DNA of 43,977 nt from Spirosoma fluviale. Lineage in GTDB: Bacteria; Bacteroidota; Bacteroidia; Cytophagales; Spirosomataceae. Shown here in pieces: positions 24,695-37,288 of the stretch (positions within the stretch are counted from its first letter, which is position 1; each line of letters starts with the position of its first letter). Both the position numbers and the translations under genes were made by a program. Where the stretch lies: NCBI GenBank assembly GCA_945906795.1, contig CAMDRO010000016.1:1-43977 (forward strand), given 5' to 3'. The notes under the pieces were generated by a model. The model was not told where the DNA came from, ran no database searches, and was given only the letters and a program-made list of their open reading frames with translations.

Positions 24695-24710
24695 TGTTTC
24701 ACGTGGAACG
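24695..24710. promoter_or_regulatory. parS-like site 1
   Basis: TGTTTCACGTGGAACG matches the chromosomal parS consensus TGTTTCACGTGAAACA except at positions 12 and 16. ParB binds such sites near replication origins, and SMC is loaded there. It overlaps the lipB stop codon. Confidence 0.8.
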
Positions 24711-25460
24711 GGTTGGTGAATTAATTTGTCCTAAGGTTTCACGTGGAACGCGAATGATTTCAAACCCAAACAATGCGCTAAGGTGGCTCAAAACAATCTC
24801 TTTTGCCTCTAACTCATTGACGGCGGCGCCTAATTCTTGGCTTAAAGACGTTACCCCTTTTTCGGATATTCCGCAGGGTACAATATGAGAAAAATAGGAC
24901 AGGTCGGGCTTGATATTAAATGCAAATCCATGCATGCTAATCCAACGGGAAGCTTTTACACCAAAGGCGCAAATTTTTCTTGCTTGGTCTGATTCATGAT
25001 TAATCCAAACACCGGTTAGCCCATGAATTCTGCCTGCGACCAAGCCATAATCTTGGCAGGTAAGAATAATGGCTTCTTCTAGCATGCGTAAATAGAGGTG
25101 GATATCGGTATAAAAATTCTCTAAGTCAAAAATAGGATAGCCCACGAGTTGGCCTGGTCCGTGATACGTAATGTCTCCTCCTCGATTTGTTTTGAAAAAC
25201 GTCGCATTAATCGTGTGCAAAAACTCTTCTCGCATCAAAAGGTGTGAGGGGTCGCCACTCTTCCCTAGCGTATACACATGGGGGTGTTCGCAGAACAAAA
25301 GGTAGTTGGGCGTCGTGACTAGATCGTGCTGAGCTAAGTTCCTGTTAGCCAATTTAATATCAGATATATCCGACATTAGCCTTTCCTGCATATCCCACGC
25401 TTCTTGGTAGGGCACAAGATTTAAATCAATAACTTGGACTTTTTTATTCTGATGGTACAT
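24699..25460 (-). CDS. lipB: Octanoyl-[ACP]:protein N-octanoyltransferase
   Basis: A 253-residue LipB, which moves octanoate from acyl-carrier protein to lipoyl domains. Visible are RGGDITYHGPGQ near residues 93-104, the catalytic lysine K169 in FGVKASRW and the catalytic cysteine C196 in HIVPCGIS. It is somewhat longer than E. coli LipB (213). The last twenty residues (after FGFEII) are a tail encoded across two parS-like sites; its stop codon lies inside one of them. The exonuclease follows directly. The divergent yraN gene starts 65 bases upstream. Confidence 0.93.
   Translation of the reverse strand: MYHQNKKVQVIDLNLVPYQEAWDMQERLMSDISDIKLANRNLAQHDLVTTPNYLLFCEHPHVYTLGKSGDPSHLLMREEFLHTINATFFKTNRGGDITYHGPGQLVGYPIFDLENFYTDIHLYLRMLEEAIILTCQDYGLVAGRIHGLTGVWINHESDQARKICAFGVKASRWISMHGFAFNIKPDLSYFSHIVPCGISEKGVTSLSQELGAAVNELEAKEIVLSHLSALFGFEIIRVPRETLGQINSPTRST
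24735..24750. promoter_or_regulatory. parS-like site 2
   Basis: GGTTTCACGTGGAACG shares the core with parS-like site 1. It lies within the lipB C-terminal coding region, exactly 40 bases from site 1. Confidence 0.75.
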
Positions 25461-26321: not shown

Positions 26322-26339
26322 GTGTTTCACGTGAAACAC
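26322..26339. promoter_or_regulatory. parS site 3, perfect 18-bp palindrome
   Basis: GTGTTTCACGTGAAACAC is a perfect palindrome containing the exact parS consensus TGTTTCACGTGAAACA at 26323-26338. It lies between ybeY and mnmG, about 1.6 kb from the two lipB-associated sites. Confidence 0.9.
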
Positions 26340-26353
26340 CCAAATAAACTTGC

Positions 26354-28213
26354 ATGCAAAATACATACGACGTCATAGTAGTAGGAGCGGGACACGCGGG
26401 TTGTGAGGCGGCACATGCGGCGGCACAAATGGGCTCGCGCGTATTGCTCATTACCATGAACATGCAAACGATAGCGCAAATGTCCTGCAATCCAGCTATG
26501 GGCGGTGTCGCCAAAGGTCAGATCGTGCGAGAAATCGATGCGTTGGGAGGAATGTCTGGAATCATCTCTGATAAAACCATGATCCAATTCCGAATGCTCA
26601 ATCGGTCAAAGGGTCCGGCCATGTGGTCGCCTAGATGTCAGTCGGACCGAATGCGATTTGCGGAGGAGTGGCGTTGGGCCTTAGAAGAAAATAAAAATGT
26701 CGATTTTTGGCAAGACTCAGTCCAACAAATCATCGTCGAAAATAATGAAATTAAAGGAGTAAAGACCCGCATGGGAATGAGTTATTTGGCACCAAGTGTC
26801 GTGCTAACGAATGGGACTTTTTTAAATGGGCTGATCCATATCGGCGAAAAGAATTTTGGGGGCGGAAGAATGGCTGAGCCTATGGCGATCGGACTTACCG
26901 AACAATTGCTTGCCTTGGGATTTGAGTCAGGGAGAATGAAGACAGGCACGCCGCCAAGGGTAGACGGGAGAAGCTTAGATTATGCTGCAATGGAAGAGCA
27001 AAAGGGGGATGAAAACCCGAGTTCTTTTTCATATTTAAGCGAAACTCATATAAAAGAACAGCGCTCTTGCTGGATCACCCATACCAATTTAAAAGTTCAT
27101 GAGGCCTTGCGAAAAGGCTTTGACAAATCCCCGATGTTTGCGGGAAGAATCAAAGGACTGGGGCCGCGTTACTGCCCATCGGTCGAAGATAAGATTAATC
27201 GCTTCGCAGATAAAGAGAGTCATCAAATATTTGTGGAACCCGAGGGTTGGAAAACGGTCGAAATTTATGTCAATGGCTTTTCGACTTCTCTTCCCGAAGA
27301 AATACAATTTGAGGCAATCCGATTAATTCCTGGGTTTGAAAAAGCCAAAATGTTTAGACCGGGATATGCCATTGAATATGACTACTTCCCGCCGACGCAA
27401 TTAAAGTCGACGCTGGAAACAAAAAAAATTAGTGGCCTGTTTTTTGCTGGCCAAATTAATGGGACCACTGGATATGAAGAAGCGGCATGCCAAGGACTCA
27501 TGGCGGGAATTAATGCCCATCAAAAAACACATCAGCTAGATCCCTTTACGTTATCCAGGTCTGATGCATACATCGGCGTGTTGATCGACGACTTGATCAA
27601 CAAAGGTACGGATGAACCCTACCGCATGTTTACGTCAAGAGCCGAATTTAGAACCTTGCTCAGACAAGACAATGCGGATGAGCGATTAACCGACAAAGGG
27701 TATAAACTGGGTCTAGCAACCCAAAAAAGAATGGATCGATTTGTTCAGAAAAAATCGAATGTCGCTGCCCTAATGAATGAAATAAAATCGATTAAAATTC
27801 GACCTGAAAATATAAATGATTGGCTTGAAAATAATCAAAGTTCGCCTATCCGAGAAGGCACACCCTTGGTCAATTTATTAAGGCGTTCTGATTTGAGTTT
27901 TGAAGCTTTACTGACGAATGAAAATTTTAAAGACCTGAAAAACGGGTATACCAATGAAGAATTGGAACAGGTAGAAATCATCGTAAAATATGAAAGCTAT
28001 ATCGAAAAAGAAAGACTCATGGTCGACAAAATGAAAACCATGGAAGGCTTATCTATTCCTACCCTTTTTGATTATGATAAAATCAAAACGTTGTCAACTG
28101 AGTCAAGAATAAAATTGAAAGCAATAAGGCCAGAAACCATAGGCCAAGCGAGTCGGATTTCTGGGGTTTCGGCCTCCGATGTTTCTATTTTACTTTTGTT
28201 TATGGGTCGATAA
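26354..28213 (+). CDS. mnmG: tRNA uridine-5-carboxymethylaminomethyl modification enzyme MnmG
   Basis: A 619-residue MnmG (GidA), the FAD- and NADH-dependent partner of MnmE in modifying wobble uridine U34 of several tRNAs. The N-terminal dinucleotide-binding motif is [50 protein letters not shown] and [19 protein letters not shown] are hallmark MnmG segments. The C-terminal tRNA-binding domain ends [16 protein letters not shown]. In many bacteria gidA is adjacent to the replication origin, and here it lies about 2.5 kb from the DnaA-box cluster. The methyltransferase gene follows two bases after its stop. Confidence 0.97.
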
Positions 28214-28215
28214 AG

Positions 28216-29100
28216 ATGGAAAAACTAAGCTCCTGTCCCGCTTGCGGCGAAACAAAATTATTGGCTTTTTTAGCGGCAAAAGATTATACCGTCTCTAAAG
28301 AAAGGTTTGAAATCACGCGTTGTGACGCATGCCAATTGCTGTTTACAAATCCTAGGCCAAGCGCTACCGAAGCGAGCCCATATTATACCTCAGAAAATTA
28401 CATTTCACATAGCGATACCCAAGAAGGAATCATCAATAAGCTATACCACATCGTTAGAAATTTTACGCTAAAACAAAAAACGCGCTGGATCGAAAAAGAG
28501 AAAAGGGGGAACCTTGAGCTTTTAGATATCGGTTGTGGAAATGGACACTTTCTCCACGCATGTCAAAAAGCCGGATGGAAAATAAGCGGAATGGAATTAG
28601 ATCCTGTAACTGCCGCTAGAGCTGAGTCAAAGCTAGGTATCGACATTTATTCCTCCATTAAAAACATTCCTAAAGATGAAAAGTTTGATTTAATTTCTCT
28701 TTGGCATGTATTGGAACACGTGTATGAACTTGACGAATATTTCAAATTCTTTGCCTCTCGAATCGTGCAAAATGGCGTCTTAATTTTAGCATTACCCGAT
28801 GCTGCTAGTTTTGACGCTGGCTATTTTAAGGAGTATTGGGCCGCTTATGATGTACCCCGGCATATCTATCATTTCGAACCAAATACGATCACGTTCTTAG
28901 CTAAAAAATATGGATTCAAATTAAAATCAACAAGGGGACAGATTTTTGACAGCTTTTATATTTCATTATTAAGCCATCAATACAAAACCGGTAATAAGAA
29001 AATTATCAGTTCGTTTATTATTGGCCTGTGGTCCAACATAAGCGCATATGTTGGCAAAGGAAATTATTCAAGTAATTTATATATTTTTGAGCATGTCTGA
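28216..29100 (+). CDS. Zinc-ribbon class I SAM-dependent methyltransferase
   Basis: A 294-residue methyltransferase. An N-terminal CxxC pair (CPACGE and CDACQ, near residues 8-11 and 36-39) probably forms a zinc ribbon. The SAM-binding motif I is LLDIGCGNGHFLHACQKAGW near residues 103-122, and WHVLEH near residue 168 is the post-II motif. Members of this Methyltransf_23-type group often act on small molecules or sugars. Its substrate is unknown. It starts two bases after mnmG and overlaps the lipoprotein start by eight bases. Confidence 0.8.
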   Translation: MEKLSSCPACGETKLLAFLAAKDYTVSKERFEITRCDACQLLFTNPRPSATEASPYYTSENYISHSDTQEGIINKLYHIVRNFTLKQKTRWIEKEKRGNLELLDIGCGNGHFLHACQKAGWKISGMELDPVTAARAESKLGIDIYSSIKNIPKDEKFDLISLWHVLEHVYELDEYFKFFASRIVQNGVLILALPDAASFDAGYFKEYWAAYDVPRHIYHFEPNTITFLAKKYGFKLKSTRGQIFDSFYISLLSHQYKTGNKKIISSFIIGLWSNISAYVGKGNYSSNLYIFEHV

Positions 29101-30724
29101 ACTTAGAAGCAAACAGCTTGTTCTCCTTTTCTTTTTATTTATCGCGACTTTATTAATCATTCAAAGTTGCGCACAGATGGCTAGTCCTCCAGGTGGGAAA
29201 AAAGATACGCTCGCGCCTAAATTAATTACCTCGATTCCGCTCAATAAAAGTAAAAATTACAAGGGGACAAAATTGGAACTAAGCTTTAATGAATTCATTA
29301 ATGTTCGAAATCTAAACCAAGAGTTGCTAATAACTCCCAATATCGGGACCTATCAAACTCGCATTAGGCCAAATGGCTTGAGTATATTGTTAGATAGCGC
29401 ATTAAAAGATCAAACAACTTACACGTTCAATTTTAGAAATTCAATTGAGGATATGTCGGAAAGAAATATTGGCAAAAATATCAAGCTCGTATTTAGCACG
29501 TCAAACACGATTGATTCCCTTAGTATTACAGGTAAAATTAAATCGGTCGAACAAAATAAAGCTTTTGAAAATATTTTGGTCGGACTATATCCTTATAATG
29601 ACACGCTTCGAATAGACAAGGCAAAGCCTTATTATTTCACTAAAACGGATACCTCCGGGATATACACACTAGAAAATTTGGCAGAAGGCAAATATTATAT
29701 GGCCGCATTTATAGACGGAAATAATAACCTTTTATACAACTCAAACAAGGAGCCTGTAGATTTTATGAGCGAGTCATTTTTCACACTAAACAAAAATGAA
29801 ACAAAAAACTTTTCTATTACGCTTCAGAACCTTGATCCTTTAAAAATCACCAAAATAACGAGTACCGCAAAAACGATTTTATATGAGATGAGTCGAGGAA
29901 TTAAGGACCTAGAATTAGAAAATAAAAAAGACTTGATCTATCAGATAGAAGGGGATAAAAACATACGCATTTATGTGAAAAACCAGGAGGCAAAAGATAC
30001 GTTGTTCCTGAGTGCCAACGTGACAGACTCGCTAAATAGAAAAATTAAAATTCCCTTAAAAGTAAAATTCCGAGAGCTAAATAAAAAAGAAAAGCCTACC
30101 CGAACAACCTTACAGGTAAGTTATCTGCCGGCTCAAGGAAAATACGTTTCTCCTGAGGATTCGTTAGTTCTAGGCTTTCCTAAGCCTGTTGTTTCTTGGG
30201 ATAGCAAACGTGTCCAATTTATAACTGAAGAAAACGAAACCATCACGCTACCCGATGAAGCGTACATGTGGAACAAATATTCAAACCAATTGACCATTAA
30301 GCGATCATTTTTGCCCTATAGAGAGAAATTCTTGCTCAACCTAGAAAAGGGGGCATTCATCAGTGTCGAAAACGATTCCAGCGACGTGCAAAAACAAGCC
30401 TTTCAATTTCAAGATTTAGAGGAATACGGGAGCATAGAGGGCAAGGTTGGCGATCGGGCCAATAACTATATTGTTCAGCTTCTGACTGCCGCTAATATGC
30501 AAGTCTTATACGAACAAAACACAAGCCAAAAATTTAATTTTTTACATGTCGAGCCCGGAGTCTATATCATTAGGGCCATAGAAGACAAAAATAAAAATGG
30601 ATATAAAGATATTGGCAATTTTCTATTAAAAACTAAGCCCGAAAGCGTGTTTTATTTAGAAGGAAAAGTCAAATTAAAAGCCAATTTTCAAATTACAGAC
30701 TTGTTGATAAGTACCCAAAACTAA
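29093..30724 (+). CDS. Ig-like (Big_5) domain lipoprotein
   Basis: A 543-residue protein with a lipoprotein signal peptide: MSELRSKQLVLLFFLFIATL then LIIQSC, the lipobox being IQSC. It is therefore probably anchored to the outer membrane. APKLITSIPLNKSKNYKGTK begins a Bacteroidota Big_5/Ig-like domain, and TYTFNFRNSIEDMSERNIGK is another recognisable piece. A later region with repeated SITGKI and SIEGKV phrases looks like carboxypeptidase-regulatory-type beta-sandwich domains. The start at 29093 is chosen over a longer frame at 29048, because only it gives a clean signal peptide. The oriC-like region begins at its stop. Confidence 0.8.
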   Translation: MSELRSKQLVLLFFLFIATLLIIQSCAQMASPPGGKKDTLAPKLITSIPLNKSKNYKGTKLELSFNEFINVRNLNQELLITPNIGTYQTRIRPNGLSILLDSALKDQTTYTFNFRNSIEDMSERNIGKNIKLVFSTSNTIDSLSITGKIKSVEQNKAFENILVGLYPYNDTLRIDKAKPYYFTKTDTSGIYTLENLAEGKYYMAAFIDGNNNLLYNSNKEPVDFMSESFFTLNKNETKNFSITLQNLDPLKITKITSTAKTILYEMSRGIKDLELENKKDLIYQIEGDKNIRIYVKNQEAKDTLFLSANVTDSLNRKIKIPLKVKFRELNKKEKPTRTTLQVSYLPAQGKYVSPEDSLVLGFPKPVVSWDSKRVQFITEENETITLPDEAYMWNKYSNQLTIKRSFLPYREKFLLNLEKGAFISVENDSSDVQKQAFQFQDLEEYGSIEGKVGDRANNYIVQLLTAANMQVLYEQNTSQKFNFLHVEPGVYIIRAIEDKNKNGYKDIGNFLLKTKPESVFYLEGKVKLKANFQITDLLISTQN

Positions 30725-31005
30725 GTGGATAAGTGCCCGAATTGCACACATGTTATCCACAAAATTTAAATCTAATTGTGTATAAATAAAATTTAACTGT
30801 GCGCTTGTGGATAACTAATCACTTATCCACACACAAATGAAAACTTATCCACTTAGCAAAAATAGAATTACAAAATATAAGTGTTTAATTATCTGATAGT
30901 TGAAAAGCTATTTTAAACTTATCCACTTATCCACAGACATCAATAATGAAGAACAAAAAAGATATATTTAAAATTTTATTTCTTTTAATTAGACTATGTG
31001 GATAA
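30724..31005. other. Probable chromosomal replication origin (oriC)
   Basis: Eight DnaA boxes lie in 282 bases. Perfect TTATCCACA boxes are at 30753-30761 (+), 30806-30814 (-), 30823-30831 (+), 30927-30935 (+) and 30997-31005 (-). TTATCCACT variants are at 30724-30732 (-), 30845-30853 (+) and 30919-30927 (+), the last sharing one base with a perfect box. AT-rich stretches at 30854-30918 and 30943-30995 could be the unwinding element. The region is otherwise non-coding except at its two edges. mnmG and parS-like sites lie within 2.5-6 kb. Unwinding or replication start is not shown by sequence alone. Confidence 0.88.
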
Positions 31006-32510
31006 AGTGTTTCTTTTTCTGTCTTATTTTAAACCAAGTCTTTGGTCTTGATAATCATTTGATTGTTCAAGATTCTACATCCAATCAAAAATTCAAATCT
31101 GAGTTTAAATCCATTCAATTAATTAAAAACCAAAAAAAGCGATTTAAATTAATGAGTGAATTTATGAATGACCACGTAATTAATGGTGATTTATTTACAA
31201 ATAATGCCTATAATTTATTTATTGAAGATAATTTAGCATCAATATGGCTTGATGAATGTGGAAAGAATGTGGATAACTTATTAAAAAAAGGGGACTTATC
31301 TTTAGCGCAGCAATTTGTTTACAAATTATATGAAGAACAAATTCCTTTTGCTGAAATAGAACGCTTATTTATTCAAAAAATCCAACAATTTCCTAATGAT
31401 CTTAATTTTATCGAGTTATTGGTTAGCGGCTATATATTTGACGGAAATTGGGATAAGGCTTGGAATCAGCGAAGGGCTTTGGATATGCGATTTAAAAATG
31501 AGCAAGGCAAGCGACTTTTGGAATTTGCCACCTACATTTTTCAAAGCCAGCAATGGTCGTTAGCAAGTAACATTTTAGATTATTTAATAAAGACTTATCC
31601 TAGTTCAAATCAAAAGTCACGTTGGCAACAAATGTCTATAGCCGCACGAGAACAAGTGGTTTTAGGAAAAGAAAAGCCAGAAGTTGGGGAAGTTATAAAT
31701 CTAATTAATGCGTATCAAAAATTAAGAAGCGAACAAGGGGATAATGCCATCTTAATGAGTTCTTATTGGCAAGAGGCCAAATTGTATGCCTATCAGCTCA
31801 AGCAATTAGATTCTGCTGTTTTGGTTTTAAATAAAGGGATTTTATTGACTCAAAACGATGTTGATTTACAAGCCCAAATGAAATTAGAACTTGGAGATAT
31901 CCTAACATATAAAGGCAAAAAGTATGACGCTTTAATTCAATATGCCCAAGTTGAAAAACAAGTAAAAGATTCACCGTTGGCCTATGAAGCGAAAATTAAA
32001 ACGGCAAAATTGTATTTTTATACCGGTGATTTTGAATTAGCCAAAGAGCTCGCAGATATTTTAAAGCAAGGAACGCAAAGAGAGATTGCCAACGATGCTT
32101 TGGAATTAAGCTTATTAATTGAAGATAATACGGGAATAGACTCGTTAGAGGTGGGTTTGAAAAAATATGCCAACATCCGATTTATGTATGATCAAAAAAG
32201 ATGGGCGGAAGGAGATTCTTTGTTAGTTCTTGTTATGGGTCAAAATAAACAGGAAAGTTTACAAGATGATATTTTATATCTCGGGGCAACGCGAGCTAGA
32301 CAAAAAGGTGAGAATGCGCTTGCCAAAGAAATGTATTGGGAGATTTTTAAAAAGTTTCCGGAAGATATTTATGGTGATGATGCTTTATTTTATTTTTTGA
32401 CATTAAGCGATACGGCCAATAGCGAGCCATTTTTTTTGTTTATAAAACAATACCCTAGCAGTTTACACTTAAGCGATGTGCGGGCGATATTGAACAATGC
32501 AAAAAAATAA
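30996..32510 (+). CDS. Secreted TPR-repeat protein next to oriC
   Basis: A 504-residue protein with a short signal-like N-terminus (MWIKCFFFCLILNQVFG). The body is helical and resembles TPR repeats, most clearly KMELGDILTYKGKKYDALIQ-like stretches near residues 305-325 and AKLYFYTGDFELAKELADIL near residue 332. It may bind a periplasmic partner; the function is unknown. Its start codon overlaps a perfect DnaA box, and another DnaA box lies at 31268-31276 in the coding region. No strong -7 element is seen upstream. Confidence 0.75.
   Translation: MWIKCFFFCLILNQVFGLDNHLIVQDSTSNQKFKSEFKSIQLIKNQKKRFKLMSEFMNDHVINGDLFTNNAYNLFIEDNLASIWLDECGKNVDNLLKKGDLSLAQQFVYKLYEEQIPFAEIERLFIQKIQQFPNDLNFIELLVSGYIFDGNWDKAWNQRRALDMRFKNEQGKRLLEFATYIFQSQQWSLASNILDYLIKTYPSSNQKSRWQQMSIAAREQVVLGKEKPEVGEVINLINAYQKLRSEQGDNAILMSSYWQEAKLYAYQLKQLDSAVLVLNKGILLTQNDVDLQAQMKLELGDILTYKGKKYDALIQYAQVEKQVKDSPLAYEAKIKTAKLYFYTGDFELAKELADILKQGTQREIANDALELSLLIEDNTGIDSLEVGLKKYANIRFMYDQKRWAEGDSLLVLVMGQNKQESLQDDILYLGATRARQKGENALAKEMYWEIFKKFPEDIYGDDALFYFLTLSDTANSEPFFLFIKQYPSSLHLSDVRAILNNAKK
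31268..31276 (-). promoter_or_regulatory. Outlying DnaA box inside the TPR gene
   Basis: TTATCCACA on the minus strand, a perfect match, 263 bases right of the last box of the main cluster. It lies inside coding sequence. Confidence 0.6.
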
Positions 32511-32513
32511 TTT

Positions 32514-32525
32514 AATAGTACTATT
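32514..32525. repeat. 12-bp palindrome before the acyl-CoA synthetase promoter
   Basis: AATAGTACTATT is a perfect palindrome just after the TPR stop, 20 bases upstream of the -7 box at 32545-32552. It could be a regulator site or part of a weak hairpin. Confidence 0.4.
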
Positions 32526-32552
32526 TTGGTTCGGCACAAACCATTAACTTTG
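32526..32552 (+). promoter_or_regulatory. Promoter of the acyl-CoA synthetase gene
   Basis: TAACTTTG (32545-32552) matches TAnnTTTG, and a TTG lies at 32526-32528 with a 16-base spacer, slightly short. It lies 20 bases before the ATG. Confidence 0.5.
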
Positions 32553-32572
32553 ACTCACAAACTATTTAAACT

Positions 32573-34348
32573 ATGTCAATAAACCACAACTTCACCCGGG
32601 TTTTCGATTTGTTAAAACCCCTTGAAACCCAGCAAATTCCTGATTTATTTTGTCAAAAGCGAGATGGAGATTGGAGAAAATATTCAAGTGCAGAAACATT
32701 AGAAAACATTCGTAGCCTAGCCTTGGGCTTATTAGAACTGGGTTTAAAACCTGGAGAAAAGGTTGCCATCATTTCTGGAAATAGGCCCCACTGGAATTTT
32801 GTTGATTTTGCCACACAAATTATAGGAGGGGTAACGGTGCCTATATACCCGACCATTACGATTGAAGATTATGAATTTATCTTTGAAAATGCCGAAGTAA
32901 AATTTGTGTTTGTCGAGGGGGAAGATTTACATTTTAAAGCAAAAGAAGCCTCAAAGAAAAACAAAAGTATTAAAGAGATTTTTACGTTTGATCCCGTTGA
33001 GGGAGCGAAATCGTGGTCGTTAGTGAAAGAAAAGGGCGAGGGAAAAGATGCAAGCATTTTGCAAAATCTGATGGATGCTGTGAAGCCAGAAGACTTATTG
33101 ACCTTAATTTATACCTCAGGAACGACTGGCAGACCGAAGGGCGTTATGTTGACGCATCATAATATTGTCAGCAATATTAAATCCACTGACCGAGGAAATT
33201 ATTTTGGATTGATGGATGGCGACAGGACCTTGAGCTTTTTGCCATTATGCCATATTTATGAGCGCACGACGATTTATGTTTATTTGTTTTATCGGGCTTC
33301 AACCTATTATGCCGAGAGCATGGAAACGATTGGCGATAACATCAGAGAAGTTCGGCCAACCATGTTTACTTCTGTGCCAAGATTATTAGAAAAGATTTAT
33401 GATAAAATCATGGCGAAAGGTAATGAGCTTACAGGAATCAAAAGAACGTTGTTTTTTGGAGCGATTGAGTTTGGCTTAAGCTATGATCCCATGAAAAAAT
33501 TGGGATTAATCGATTCGATCAAGCTTGGGCTTTATCGAAAATTGATTTTTAGCAAATGGAAAGAGGCTCTTGGGGGCCGAGTGAGATTAATCGCTTCGGG
33601 ATCTGCAGCTTTACAACCGCGCTTATCTCGGGTGTTTTGGGCAGCTGGAATCCCTATTTCTGAGGGGTATGGATTAACGGAAACATCGCCAATTATATCG
33701 ATCTCTAAGGTAAATCCACCAGATTTTCAGGTGGGTTGCGTGGGTTCTGTTTTAGATTGTGTGGAAGTGAAAATTGCCGAAGATGGGGAGATTTTAGCCA
33801 AAGGAGACTCGATCATGCCAGGGTATTATAAAAATCCGGAGGCAACAGCCGAGGCGATTGACAAGGACGGCTGGTTCCATACGGGCGATATAGGTATCAT
33901 GGTAGAAGGAAAATATTTAAAAATTACGGATCGAAAGAAAGAGATTTTTAAAACGTCGGGGGGAAAATATGTGGCACCTCAATTGGTTGAAAATAAATTA
34001 AAGGAATCATCCTTTATCGAACAATGTATGGTGACAGGCGAAGGACAAAAGTTTCCTTCGGCTTTGATTATTCCAGAATTTACAGCCTTAGGCGTTTGGT
34101 GTAAGCAACAAGAAATAGAGGCAAGTTCGCCACAGGAAATGATTGCCAACAAAAAAGTCGTGGCTAAAATGGAAGAAGAGGTATTGATGACGATGGCTTC
34201 TGTGGCCCAATATGAGCAAGTAAAGAAATTTGTTTTGCTACCACGATTATTTACGATTTCAGACGGGGAGATTACGCCCACGTTAAAATTAAAGCGGAAG
34301 CAAATTTTTGCGAAACACGGGGCGGCCATTTTGGAATTATATACATAG
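32573..34348 (+). CDS. Long-chain acyl-CoA synthetase (AMP-dependent)
   Basis: A 591-residue AMP-binding ligase. It shows LIYTSGTTGRPKGVMLTHHN near residues 178-197, the EGYGLTETSPIIS adenylation motif, WFHTGDIG, and TDRKKEIFKTSGGKYVAP with the hinge. These define fatty-acid CoA ligases of the FadD/FACL group, which activate fatty acids for beta-oxidation or phospholipid synthesis. It resembles FAA1-type long-chain ligases more than acetyl-CoA synthetase. Chain length cannot be deduced. It is a single gene with its own promoter. Confidence 0.92.
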   Translation: MSINHNFTRVFDLLKPLETQQIPDLFCQKRDGDWRKYSSAETLENIRSLALGLLELGLKPGEKVAIISGNRPHWNFVDFATQIIGGVTVPIYPTITIEDYEFIFENAEVKFVFVEGEDLHFKAKEASKKNKSIKEIFTFDPVEGAKSWSLVKEKGEGKDASILQNLMDAVKPEDLLTLIYTSGTTGRPKGVMLTHHNIVSNIKSTDRGNYFGLMDGDRTLSFLPLCHIYERTTIYVYLFYRASTYYAESMETIGDNIREVRPTMFTSVPRLLEKIYDKIMAKGNELTGIKRTLFFGAIEFGLSYDPMKKLGLIDSIKLGLYRKLIFSKWKEALGGRVRLIASGSAALQPRLSRVFWAAGIPISEGYGLTETSPIISISKVNPPDFQVGCVGSVLDCVEVKIAEDGEILAKGDSIMPGYYKNPEATAEAIDKDGWFHTGDIGIMVEGKYLKITDRKKEIFKTSGGKYVAPQLVENKLKESSFIEQCMVTGEGQKFPSALIIPEFTALGVWCKQQEIEASSPQEMIANKKVVAKMEEEVLMTMASVAQYEQVKKFVLLPRLFTISDGEITPTLKLKRKQIFAKHGAAILELYT

Positions 34349-34382
34349 CGTTTTATGGAGGCGGCCCATTAAATAAATTTGA

Positions 34383-34413
34383 TTGTGTCGCTCTGCTATT
34401 TTTTGTAATTTTG
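34383..34413 (+). promoter_or_regulatory. Promoter of the gmd operon
   Basis: -33 TTG at 34383-34385, a 20-base spacer and the -7 element TAATTTTG at 34406-34413 give a very good Bacteroidota-type promoter. The predicted leader is about 45-50 bases and holds the hairpin at 34426-34451. Confidence 0.65.
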
Positions 34414-34425
34414 CCCCTGATATCA

Positions 34426-34451
34426 TGAGGCGCGCTAATTTTTTGGCCTCA
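34426..34451 (+). promoter_or_regulatory. Leader hairpin of the gmd operon
   Basis: TGAGGC (34426-34431) and GCCTCA (34446-34451) pair over 6 bp across a 14-base loop and are followed by the T-rich ATTTAATTTATTTT. This resembles a weak intrinsic terminator between promoter and gmd ATG. Confidence 0.45.
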
Positions 34452-34467
34452 ATTTAATTTATTTTAT

Positions 34468-35544
34468 ATGTCTCAAAAACAAAAGATAGCACTTGTTACA
34501 GGTATTACAGGTCAAGACGGTGCTTATTTAGCCGAATTATTATTGTCTAAAGGATATGTGGTGCATGGAATTAAGCGAAGAAGCTCCTTGATCAATACGG
34601 GTAGAATAGATCATATATATGAAGATCCACATGTGGATTCGTCCAATTTTCACTTGCATTATGGGGATTTAAGTGATTCTACCAATATCATACGCATTAT
34701 TCAAGATGTGCAACCGGATGAGATTTATAATCTGGGCGCGATGTCCCATGTTAGGGTTTCTTTTGATGAGCCCGAATACACGGCTCAAGTAGATGGAATA
34801 GGAACACTTCGTGTTTTAGAGGCCGTTCGTTTGTTGGGCCTGACGAAAAAGACAAAAATTTATCAGGCGTCTACGTCGGAATTATATGGTTTGGTGCAGG
34901 AGGTTCCCCAGTCGGAAAAAACGCCGTTTTATCCGCGTTCTCCCTATGCCGTTGCGAAGATGTATGGCTATTGGATTACGGTCAATTACCGGGAGGCCTA
35001 TGGTATGTTTGCGGTGAATGGAATATTGTTTAATCATGAGTCGCCTTTACGTGGAGAGACTTTTGTGACGCGTAAAATTACGCGAGGGGTTTCTCAGATT
35101 GCGTTAGGCCAACAAGATAAAATTTATTTAGGAAATTTAGATGCCAAGCGGGATTGGGGTCATGCCAAAGATTATGTGGAAGCGATGTGGTTAATTTTGC
35201 AACAAGAGAAACCAGAAGACTTTGTTATTGCCACAGGCATTACGACCACGGTTCGTGATTTTATCAAAATGGCTTTTGCAGAAGTGGGCATAGAAGTTCA
35301 ATTTAGTGGAGAAGGCGTGAATGAAATTGCTAAGGTTTCAAAGTGCAATAACCCACTGTATCAAGTGGCTATCGGCAAAGAAGTCGTTGCCGTTGACCCA
35401 CGTTATTTCCGCCCCACCGAAGTGGAATTGTTGATCGGCGATCCAACAAAGGCCAAAACGCAATTAGGTTGGACCTTACAATATGACTTACCAGCCTTGG
35501 TGAAAGACATGATGGCTGCGGATGTCAAATTATTTACTAAATAA
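34468..35544 (+). CDS. gmd: GDP-mannose 4,6-dehydratase
   Basis: A 358-residue short-chain dehydrogenase/reductase-type enzyme that turns GDP-mannose into GDP-4-keto-6-deoxymannose, a precursor of GDP-fucose, GDP-rhamnose and perosamine. The cofactor-binding motif is [20 protein letters not shown], and [13 protein letters not shown] and [13 protein letters not shown] follow. The YxxxK pair is in [15 protein letters not shown], and [20 protein letters not shown] is a GMD signature. It is the first gene of a polysaccharide set, two bases before the UDP-sugar dehydrogenase. It has a strong promoter and a leader hairpin. Confidence 0.95.
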
Positions 35545-35546
35545 AA

Positions 35547-36800
35547 ATGAATCCATCCATTGCGATTATTGGTTTGGGCTATGTAGGCTTTCCTTTAGCT
35601 GTGGAGTTTGGAAAGTTATATCCTACGCTAGGTTTTGATATTGATATCACGCGTATTTCGGAGTTAAATCGGGGATATGATCGTACACAGGAGGTGAGCG
35701 ATGTACAATTAAAGGCTTCGTCTCAGTTAAAATTTTCATCCGAATTAAAAGATTTATCGGCCTATAATACCTTCATTGTGACCGTTCCCACTCCCATTGA
35801 CCATTTCAAAAAACCAGATTTGGGGCCATTATTAAAGGCATCCGAGATGATAGGTCATGTGCTGAAAAAGGGCGATGTGGTGATTTATGAATCAACGGTC
35901 TACCCGGGTTGTACAGAGGAAGATTGTGTTCCCGTATTGGAAAAGCAGTCGGGATTAAAATTTAACGAAGATTTCTTTTGTGGCTATTCGCCGGAGCGGA
36001 TTAATCCGGGCGACAAGGTAAATACCTTAACAAATATCAAAAAAGTTACTTCGGGATCTACGCCTGAAATTGCGGAGTGGGTGGATCAATTATATCGATC
36101 GATTATCACTGCCGGAACGCATAAGGCATCATCGATTAAGGTGGCCGAAGCGAGTAAGGCGATTGAAAATGCACAGCGAGATGTCAATATTTCCTTTGTG
36201 AATGAGTTGGCCTTAATATTTGATCGCATGGGAATAGACACTTCGGAGGTATTAGAGGCGGCGGGAACCAAATGGAATTTTTTAAATTTTAAACCAGGTT
36301 TAGTGGGCGGTCATTGCATCGGTGTTGACCCCTATTATTTATTACACAAATCGGAAAGTTTGGGTTATTATCCACAGGTTATATTGTCGGGCCGAAGGGT
36401 AAATGACAATATGGGATTATTTGTGGCTAATAAATTGGTCAAGTTATTGATTCAAAAAGGAAAAAAAATAGGAGGTGCGAAGACATTAATGTTGGGCATT
36501 ACTTTTAAAGAAAACTGCCCCGATATTCGAAATTCGCGGGTAGTCGATATTTATCGTGAGCTACGTGATTTTGGGATGGAAGTGGACGTTTATGATCCGT
36601 GGGCAAATAAAGCGGAAGTGAAAAAAGAGCATGGCATCGAATTAGTTTCGGAATTGGCAGCCAACTATGATGCGATTGTTTTAACGGTTGCGCATCAGGA
36701 ATTTTTAAATTTGCCTTATGCTTCTTTGAAGGCAGAAGGCGGAATTATTTTTGACATTAAATCAGTATTGAATAGGGCTTTGGTAGACGCAAGGCTATAA
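35547..36800 (+). CDS. UDP-N-acetylhexosamine dehydrogenase (TviB/WbpO-like)
   Basis: A 417-residue nucleotide-sugar dehydrogenase that oxidises the C6 hydroxyl of a UDP-sugar to a carboxylate with two NAD. The N-terminal motif is IIGLGYVGFPLAVEFG, the catalytic cysteine is in VGGHCIGVDPYY, and VAEASKAIENAQRDVNI is a hallmark of this group. The close resemblance to TviB/WbpO suggests UDP-GlcNAc or UDP-GalNAc as substrate, rather than UDP-glucose. The product would be an acidic sugar for capsule or exopolysaccharide. It follows gmd with no usable gap, and the NusG-like gene follows 11 bases later. Confidence 0.9.
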   Translation: MNPSIAIIGLGYVGFPLAVEFGKLYPTLGFDIDITRISELNRGYDRTQEVSDVQLKASSQLKFSSELKDLSAYNTFIVTVPTPIDHFKKPDLGPLLKASEMIGHVLKKGDVVIYESTVYPGCTEEDCVPVLEKQSGLKFNEDFFCGYSPERINPGDKVNTLTNIKKVTSGSTPEIAEWVDQLYRSIITAGTHKASSIKVAEASKAIENAQRDVNISFVNELALIFDRMGIDTSEVLEAAGTKWNFLNFKPGLVGGHCIGVDPYYLLHKSESLGYYPQVILSGRRVNDNMGLFVANKLVKLLIQKGKKIGGAKTLMLGITFKENCPDIRNSRVVDIYRELRDFGMEVDVYDPWANKAEVKKEHGIELVSELAANYDAIVLTVAHQEFLNLPYASLKAEGGIIFDIKSVLNRALVDARL

Positions 36801-36811
36801 ATTAAGAACGG

Positions 36812-37288
36812 ATGGCTTGGTATGCGATATATACAAAATCTCGGATGGAGAAAAAGGTTTCTTTGCGATTGGAGGAAGCGGGAATTGAAAGTTATTGCCC
36901 GGTAACCAAACGCAAAAAACAGTGGTCGGATCGAAAAAAAATTGTGGAGGAGGTATTATTTCGTTCTTATGTTTTTGTAAACATTGACTTGGTCACGCAG
37001 GGGGCCACGGTAAGAAAAACGTTTGGTGTGGTTAATTTTGTGTATTGGTTACACAAACCAGCGGTGGTGCAGGATGCGGAAATTTTAGCAATCCAACAAT
37101 TTTTATCGGATCACATGGAGGTTTCTGTCATAGGTGACACCGCGGTGAAAGTAGGCGATTTCATCACGATTGACACAGGGCCACTTAAAGGACAGACCGC
37201 TGAAGTGGTCGGATTAAAAAACAAGAACGAGGTTCGCTTGCGAATAGATAGTTTGGGATTTGAGTTGGTGGCTAATTTAAGTCATTGA
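36812..37288 (+). CDS. NusG-family specialised antiterminator (UpxY-like)
   Basis: A 158-residue NusG paralogue. The NGN domain starts MAWYAIYTKSRMEKKVSLRL and includes LFRSYVFVNIDL. The C-terminal KOW domain includes VKVGDFITIDTGPLKGQTAE. It is shorter than housekeeping NusG and sits in a sugar locus, like UpxY proteins that let RNA polymerase read through terminators in capsule operons of Bacteroides. That role is inferred here. In Bacteroides the gene usually comes first; here it is third. The wzi gene starts 35 bases downstream. Confidence 0.88.
   Translation: MAWYAIYTKSRMEKKVSLRLEEAGIESYCPVTKRKKQWSDRKKIVEEVLFRSYVFVNIDLVTQGATVRKTFGVVNFVYWLHKPAVVQDAEILAIQQFLSDHMEVSVIGDTAVKVGDFITIDTGPLKGQTAEVVGLKNKNEVRLRIDSLGFELVANLSH

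Follow-up and report, generated by a model that had tools for sequence, protein, structure and literature searches.

The window, by which we mean the whole 43,977-nt stretch of DNA analysed, is contig C16 of a draft genome of 2.63 Mb in 100 contigs. Judging from the relatives found with its MnmG, the source genome is a member of the genus Aquirufa (Cytophagales). MAG records titled Spirosoma fluviale share 96% MnmG identity with the window and may be misnamed. The locus comprises, in order, lipB on the minus strand, ybeY, mnmG, a methyltransferase gene and an ORF with a Big_5 domain (PF13205; 29048-30724), followed by an ORF starting at 30996. A motif search of the window located five exact TTATCCACA and three exact TTATCCACT DnaA boxes on both strands within 282 bp (30724-31005), precisely as the original prediction had claimed (Table 1), and the variant TTATCAACA at 30702 on the minus strand also belongs to this group. 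Two of the boxes, 30919-30927 and 30927-30935, share base 30927, again as claimed. The AT content was 74% over the 282 bp and 87% over 30943-30995. The intergenic placement needs a small correction at its edges: the Big_5 ORF ends on the first base of the first box, and the last box lies just inside the downstream ORF, whose ATG is at 30996. The Big_5 assignment of the upstream flank was confirmed, but the downstream ORF, predicted to encode a TPR protein and called the TPR ORF here, gave no Pfam family match, only YbgF/YfiO models below their cut-offs.

Table 1. Coordinates of the features of the proposed origin region within the window
Feature	Position	Strand	Basis
DnaA box TTATCCACT	30724-30732	-	Motif search; TTATCCACA at the same place in many of the genus (alignment)
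DnaA box TTATCCACA	30753-30761	+	Motif search; genus alignment
DnaA box variant TTATACACA	30777-30785	-	Variant search
DnaA box TTATCCACA	30806-30814	-	Motif search; genus alignment
DnaA box TTATCCACA	30823-30831	+	Motif search; genus alignment
DnaA box TTATCCACT	30845-30853	+	Motif search; genus alignment
Two overlapping tandem DnaA boxes TTATCCACTTATCCACA (TTATCCACT at 30919, TTATCCACA at 30927), proposed platform beside the unwinding element	30919-30935	+	Genus comparison
Conserved A-rich tract	30936-30961	+	AATAA (30942-30946) and AACAA (30952-30956), TT[A/G]TT on the minus strand
Candidate DNA unwinding element (lowest stability of any 50-mer in the window)	30942-30991		Stability scan; genus comparison
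DnaA box TTATCCACA, far side of the unwinding element, inside start of TPR ORF	30997-31005	-	Motif search; genus alignment
Further TTATCCACA inside TPR ORF, possibly an outlying box	31268-31276	-	Motif search; kept in close relatives (alignment)
parS TGTTTCACGTGAAACA between ybeY and mnmG	26323-26338		parS pattern search
Degenerate parS TGTTTCACGTGGAACG, lipB 3' end	24695-24710		parS pattern search
mnmG (gidA), conserved origin neighbour	26354-28213	+	Profile and homology matches

The clustering of boxes far exceeded chance. The window as a whole contained 10 exact sites against a mean of 0.56 and a maximum of 3 in 100 shuffles; with one mismatch allowed, the window-wide enrichment was mild (65 sites versus 47 expected, with 1 of the 100 shuffles reaching as many). 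Among the 84 exact sites of the draft genome, 8 lay in this cluster, the densest of the 2.63 Mb, and 4 in one other group (C65:10362-10477), and beyond these two groups no other three exact sites occurred within 500 bp of each other. Taking the 72 sites outside both clusters as the background density, the probability of at least eight boxes in 282 bp was ~3e-22 per position. The same two clusters alone formed groups of at least three sites within 500 bp in a second genome, G019, for which all 88 sites were listed.

The original prediction had placed a likely unwinding element at 30943-30995, next to the tandem boxes. A stability scan agreed with this placement, in that the 50-mer adjoining these boxes was the least stable in the whole 44 kb. 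Across the genus, the corresponding place fell within the top 0.61% of the fetched stretch for instability in 25/25 sequences; it was itself the least stable 50-mer in 11, and in the other 14 the least stable one lay elsewhere, at most 250 bp from the tandem boxes. As a control, the DUE of Escherichia coli oriC ranked in the top 0.23% of 9 kb, also without being the least stable. In the genus, window included, the one-base overlap of the tandem boxes recurred in 25 of 26 sequences when variants were allowed; the remaining one stops at a contig end. When 37 named loci were scanned with one mismatch allowed per box, 7 of the 15 non-Aquirufa loci that have a cluster showed box pairs 8-9 bp apart there (Larkinella, Runella, Rhodocytophaga and Hymenobacter); such pairs also occur at places other than clusters.

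We then compared this arrangement with two known modes of origin opening. According to PMC8287927, the basal unwinding system (BUS) requires at least three DnaA-trios (3'-NAN-5') by the box, and we used the definition of a box with at least three such trios within 16 bp. The tandem boxes are present, but a run of at least three trios on the expected strand was not found there, the count being 0-2 in 25/25 sequences compared with 3 at E. coli R1 by the same procedure; canonical DnaA-trios at the tandem boxes were accordingly rejected. Trio runs of 3-4 were seen at the window boxes at 30724, 30753 and 30806, as raw counts that carry no chance level. A run of 6-9 NAN triplets on the opposite strand is partly a matter of A-richness and is not claimed as a motif. 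In E. coli, DnaA binds TT[G/A]T(T) in the single strand of the DUE, according to PMC10316083. In 25/25 sequences (a raw count in A-rich DNA), the motif AAYAA followed the tandem boxes at two fixed offsets, +7 and +17; it reads TT[A/G]TT on the strand carrying TGTGGATAA, as an E. coli-type ssDUE recruitment would need. Given zero to two trios at the tandem boxes and TT[A/G]TT at fixed places, we infer that E. coli-type recruitment is the preferred reading for this unwinding element over that of the BUS.

To follow the cluster through the genus, 36 same-genus genomes were considered, 25 of which gave a stretch downstream of mnmG; in the other 11, mnmG was missing or cut, the contig was short, or the stretch was not fetched. 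Counted from the mnmG start, 24 of the 25 stretches had a box cluster (3-11 exact boxes within 450 bp) at +4.35 to +4.58 kb, and in the remaining one (L052) the contig ends at +4.03 kb. A. nivalisilvae and its close kin retain only 3 exact boxes in the cluster. Among stretches from relatives of the same order, 2/15 had at least three exact boxes in 450 bp and 13/15 had fewer. In the best 80 named loci of a longer list, 30 had at least three boxes in 450 bp when TTATACACA was counted, 11 of them being Aquirufa genomes already included above. The non-Aquirufa loci among these best 80 had a cluster at +3.7 to +5.4 kb in 15 of 67 cases, including Larkinella, Runella, Fibrivirga, Rhodocytophaga, Telluribacter, Hymenobacter and Fulvivirga, and four further ones had groups of three boxes elsewhere in the locus. 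Cellulophaga sp. BC115SP, whose MnmG is 73% identical to that of the window, has a cluster beside mnmG as in Cytophagales and may be misnamed. The gene behind the cluster was less constant: the TPR ORF (30996-32510) was missing there in 10 of the 25 genus stretches (L054, L056-L063 and L083), where an AMP-binding gene starting +4.86 to +4.87 kb from mnmG lies directly behind the cluster. Farther downstream in the window, gmd, a TviB-like nucleotide-sugar dehydrogenase gene and an UpxY-type antiterminator gene follow in a row (34468-37288), which probably opens a surface polysaccharide locus near the origin.

A parS site near oriC is usual, though not obligatory. The parS pattern TGTTNCACGTGNAACA was searched in five genomes with one mismatch allowed. 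All nine perfect sites (9/9) were within 4.4-6.0 kb of the box cluster, while sites with one mismatch were near the cluster in G019, the source genome and G006, and far from it in A. ecclesiirivi (contig C31) and A. nivalisilvae (C17:767520). A parS-like site with at most two mismatches was found just upstream of mnmG in 30/30 genus loci, that of the window included. Among the best 80 named loci, 36 had parS with at most one mismatch in the locus (13/13 Aquirufa and 23/67 others), compared with 0/80 for each of four scrambled-palindrome controls. Of the 15 non-Aquirufa loci with a box cluster in this set of 80, just 2 also had such a site, and so the pairing of boxes with a consensus parS is shown for the genus only.

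It is likewise usual but not obligatory for dnaA to adjoin oriC. As the original prediction had stated, dnaA is not adjacent to the cluster: in the source genome it is on contig C4, and the 15 kb around it contain one DnaA box, so that an equal cluster next to dnaA, named beforehand as evidence against the prediction, was not found there. The DnaA protein shows the usual architecture of N-terminal, AAA+ and box-binding domains and can be aligned to DnaA proteins of solved structure. Aquirufa genome G006 is a single 2.5-Mb contig of 2,505,188 nt, in which dnaA (position 449) and the cluster (position 1,241,620) are 1.24 Mb apart, or 0.495 of the circle. The parB gene is ~9 kb from dnaA on one contig each in the source genome (C4:25137-35137) and G019 (C4:323518-333287). 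In G006 the two genes are ~9 kb apart across the contig ends, suggesting that this contig closes.

Strand composition was assessed as third-codon-position GC skew corrected for coding strand, in samples along contigs, with raw skew alongside. Two 60-base lines picked by hand in the original prediction were recounted and contained 23 C and 7 G and 7 C and 23 G, as given. In A. nivalisilvae (G020:C17), corrected skew was negative in 13/13 samples to the left of the cluster and positive in 7/7 to the right (raw, 12/13 and 5/7), with the sign change between samples meeting at 472.0 kb and the cluster at ~472.2-472.4 kb. In A. ecclesiirivi (G033:C11), 8/9 left samples were negative and 11/11 right samples positive (raw, 7/9 and 11/11), the sign changing between 304.6 and 304.9 kb and the cluster lying at ~304.6-304.8 kb. 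Within the window, the corrected skew changed between blocks 26401-30800 and 30801-35200, although two blocks before these were slightly positive. In raw skew, the window had its cumulative GC minimum at 25,052, 5.7 kb from the cluster, and coding strand and arm are confounded in the window. The signal was weak in G019:C2 (left, 8/12 negative, 3 positive and 1 zero; right, 4/8 positive), with the cumulative minimum in the sample beside the cluster. G006, sampled at 40 places of 10 kb each to cover 16% of the contig, yielded no simple V with its minimum at the cluster: the global minimum, raw and corrected, was at ~0.19-0.25 Mb, with only a local minimum by the cluster at 1.24 Mb. In G040, a 9-Mb genome of another genus sampled at 20 positions of 20 kb, raw and corrected skew disagreed: the raw sign change was at ~2.25-2.7 Mb and the cluster at 3.67 Mb, whereas the corrected cumulative curve was flat from 2.25 to 3.7 Mb and reached its lowest point in the sample immediately to the right of the cluster, with 8/10 left samples negative and 7/10 right samples positive. 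A skew minimum far from the cluster, named beforehand as evidence against an origin here, was thus absent from A. nivalisilvae, A. ecclesiirivi and the window, though the sampled global minimum of G006 lay elsewhere. A dif-like consensus pattern with one mismatch allowed gave two unlike matches in six genomes, in A. ecclesiirivi and A. nivalisilvae, and no shared site, and the terminus was therefore not placed independently.

Taken together, the conservation of the cluster in the genus and partly beyond, the adjacent least stable DNA, the nearby parS and the corrected skew change in A. nivalisilvae and A. ecclesiirivi support the original prediction, and from this sequence evidence we consider 30724-31005 to be, with little doubt, the chromosomal oriC of this Aquirufa. 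Initiation may be envisaged as follows. ATP-DnaA, supplied from its distant gene, would fill the boxes, and an oligomer starting at the tandem boxes would melt 30942-30991 and hold the minus strand through its TT[A/G]TT motifs. The helicase would then be loaded at the melted element and two forks would leave in opposite directions, while ParB, also made elsewhere, would bind the parS by mnmG and segregate the new origins.

The second cluster of the source genome bears on another explanation of the first. At C65:10362-10477, four TTATCCACA boxes follow an HTH ORF and precede a PRA-PH (PF01503) ORF. At least three boxes preceded the PRA-PH gene in 29 of 30 genus loci, the source genome included, the one miss being a cut contig; genus-wide the cluster has 3-5 exact boxes. 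Four further genomes had two to four boxes at this place. Of six same-order relatives holding the PRA-PH gene, the five fetched had no boxes there. The G006 copy of this gene lies at 2.134 Mb, which places it ~0.89 Mb away from the origin. We regard this second cluster as a candidate, either for a datA/DARS-like site or for a promoter under DnaA control. Non-origin clusters of this kind exist, one of them conserved in this very genome, and by analogy the cluster at 30724-31005 could have no origin function and instead titrate or reactivate DnaA (datA/DARS type) or serve the TPR gene as a DnaA-controlled promoter. We regard this as very unlikely, given the least stable DNA that adjoins the cluster, the parS nearby, the skew change at the cluster, and the retention of the cluster in the 10 stretches where the gene behind it is a different one, the AMP-binding gene.

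The sampled skew of G006 and the raw skew of G040 would instead fit a true origin elsewhere, the present site being a former or secondary one. In G006:C1, the segment from ~220000 to 840000 has skew of the wrong sign for its arm, which suggests an inversion or a misassembly, and our guess is that an inversion of ~0.22-0.84 Mb, real or introduced by assembly, would explain the skew of this genome. Since, in addition, no box cluster was found near 0.2 Mb in G006 among the sites listed (up to 1.85 Mb), and the skew of A. nivalisilvae, A. ecclesiirivi and the window switches at the cluster, an origin elsewhere appears extremely improbable. An integrated plasmid, phage or other element with the cluster as its origin is scarcely credible: nothing beyond the boxes themselves was found in support of this reading, the flanks are the housekeeping genes lipB, ybeY and mnmG, and the position next to mnmG is conserved throughout the genus and in some other Cytophagales.

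Read as oriC, the region resembles several known origins. It shares with Bacteroidetes origins that lie away from dnaA, as described in PMC4755523 for Prevotella intermedia OMA14 and in a remark on DoriC, multiple DnaA boxes, a skew transition and a non-adjacent dnaA; P. intermedia belongs to a different order from Aquirufa, and the likeness leaves the gene neighbourhood aside. With E. coli K-12 oriC it has in common the mnmG side and a box, R1 in E. coli, that points into an AT-rich DUE, and in the E. coli sequence fetched as a control TTGT/TTATT lie on the TGTGGATAA strand in the same direction from R1 as the Aquirufa motifs. However, E. coli oriC is 0.1 kb from mnmG while the Aquirufa cluster lies behind two more genes, and Aquirufa has overlapping tandem boxes and more exact consensus boxes where E. 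coli oriC has one TTATCCACA. The tandem boxes directly beside the unwinding site recall the BUS of Bacillus subtilis, which differs in having at least three DnaA-trios on the expected strand. According to PMC4755523, a large distance between oriC and dnaA is common in Bacteroidetes, and because this separation is already in print the Aquirufa origin would be an ordinary one of a known kind. A literature search for a Bacteroidetes oriC far from dnaA and beside mnmG/gidA found no paper. The word oriC was absent from the Aquirufa literature found by search, which is no proof that nothing is in print. The present analysis adds the exact place of the origin, its anatomy and the way its cis and trans parts are paired; the origin is new for the genus as far as searched.

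The result offers a precise, testable origin for a freshwater genus and a landmark by which oriC may be recognised in Aquirufa drafts: parS with mnmG, then the overlapping tandem boxes, then AAYAA, parts that are only partly kept beyond the genus. Using dnaA as the landmark would mislead, since the G006 contig begins with dnaA, opposite the origin of that genome. The distance between dnaA and oriC also raises the question of how initiation is timed. One tentative idea, which we think rather doubtful at present, is that two separate pairs, oriC with parS (4.4 kb apart, by mnmG) and dnaA with parB (~9 kb apart), lying at opposite poles (as placed from one assembly, G006), might together with the second box cluster constitute a clock based on dosage and titration that differs from the one in bacteria whose dnaA adjoins oriC. 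If this were true, the initiator gene dnaA would be copied last and its dosage would be lowest just after initiation.
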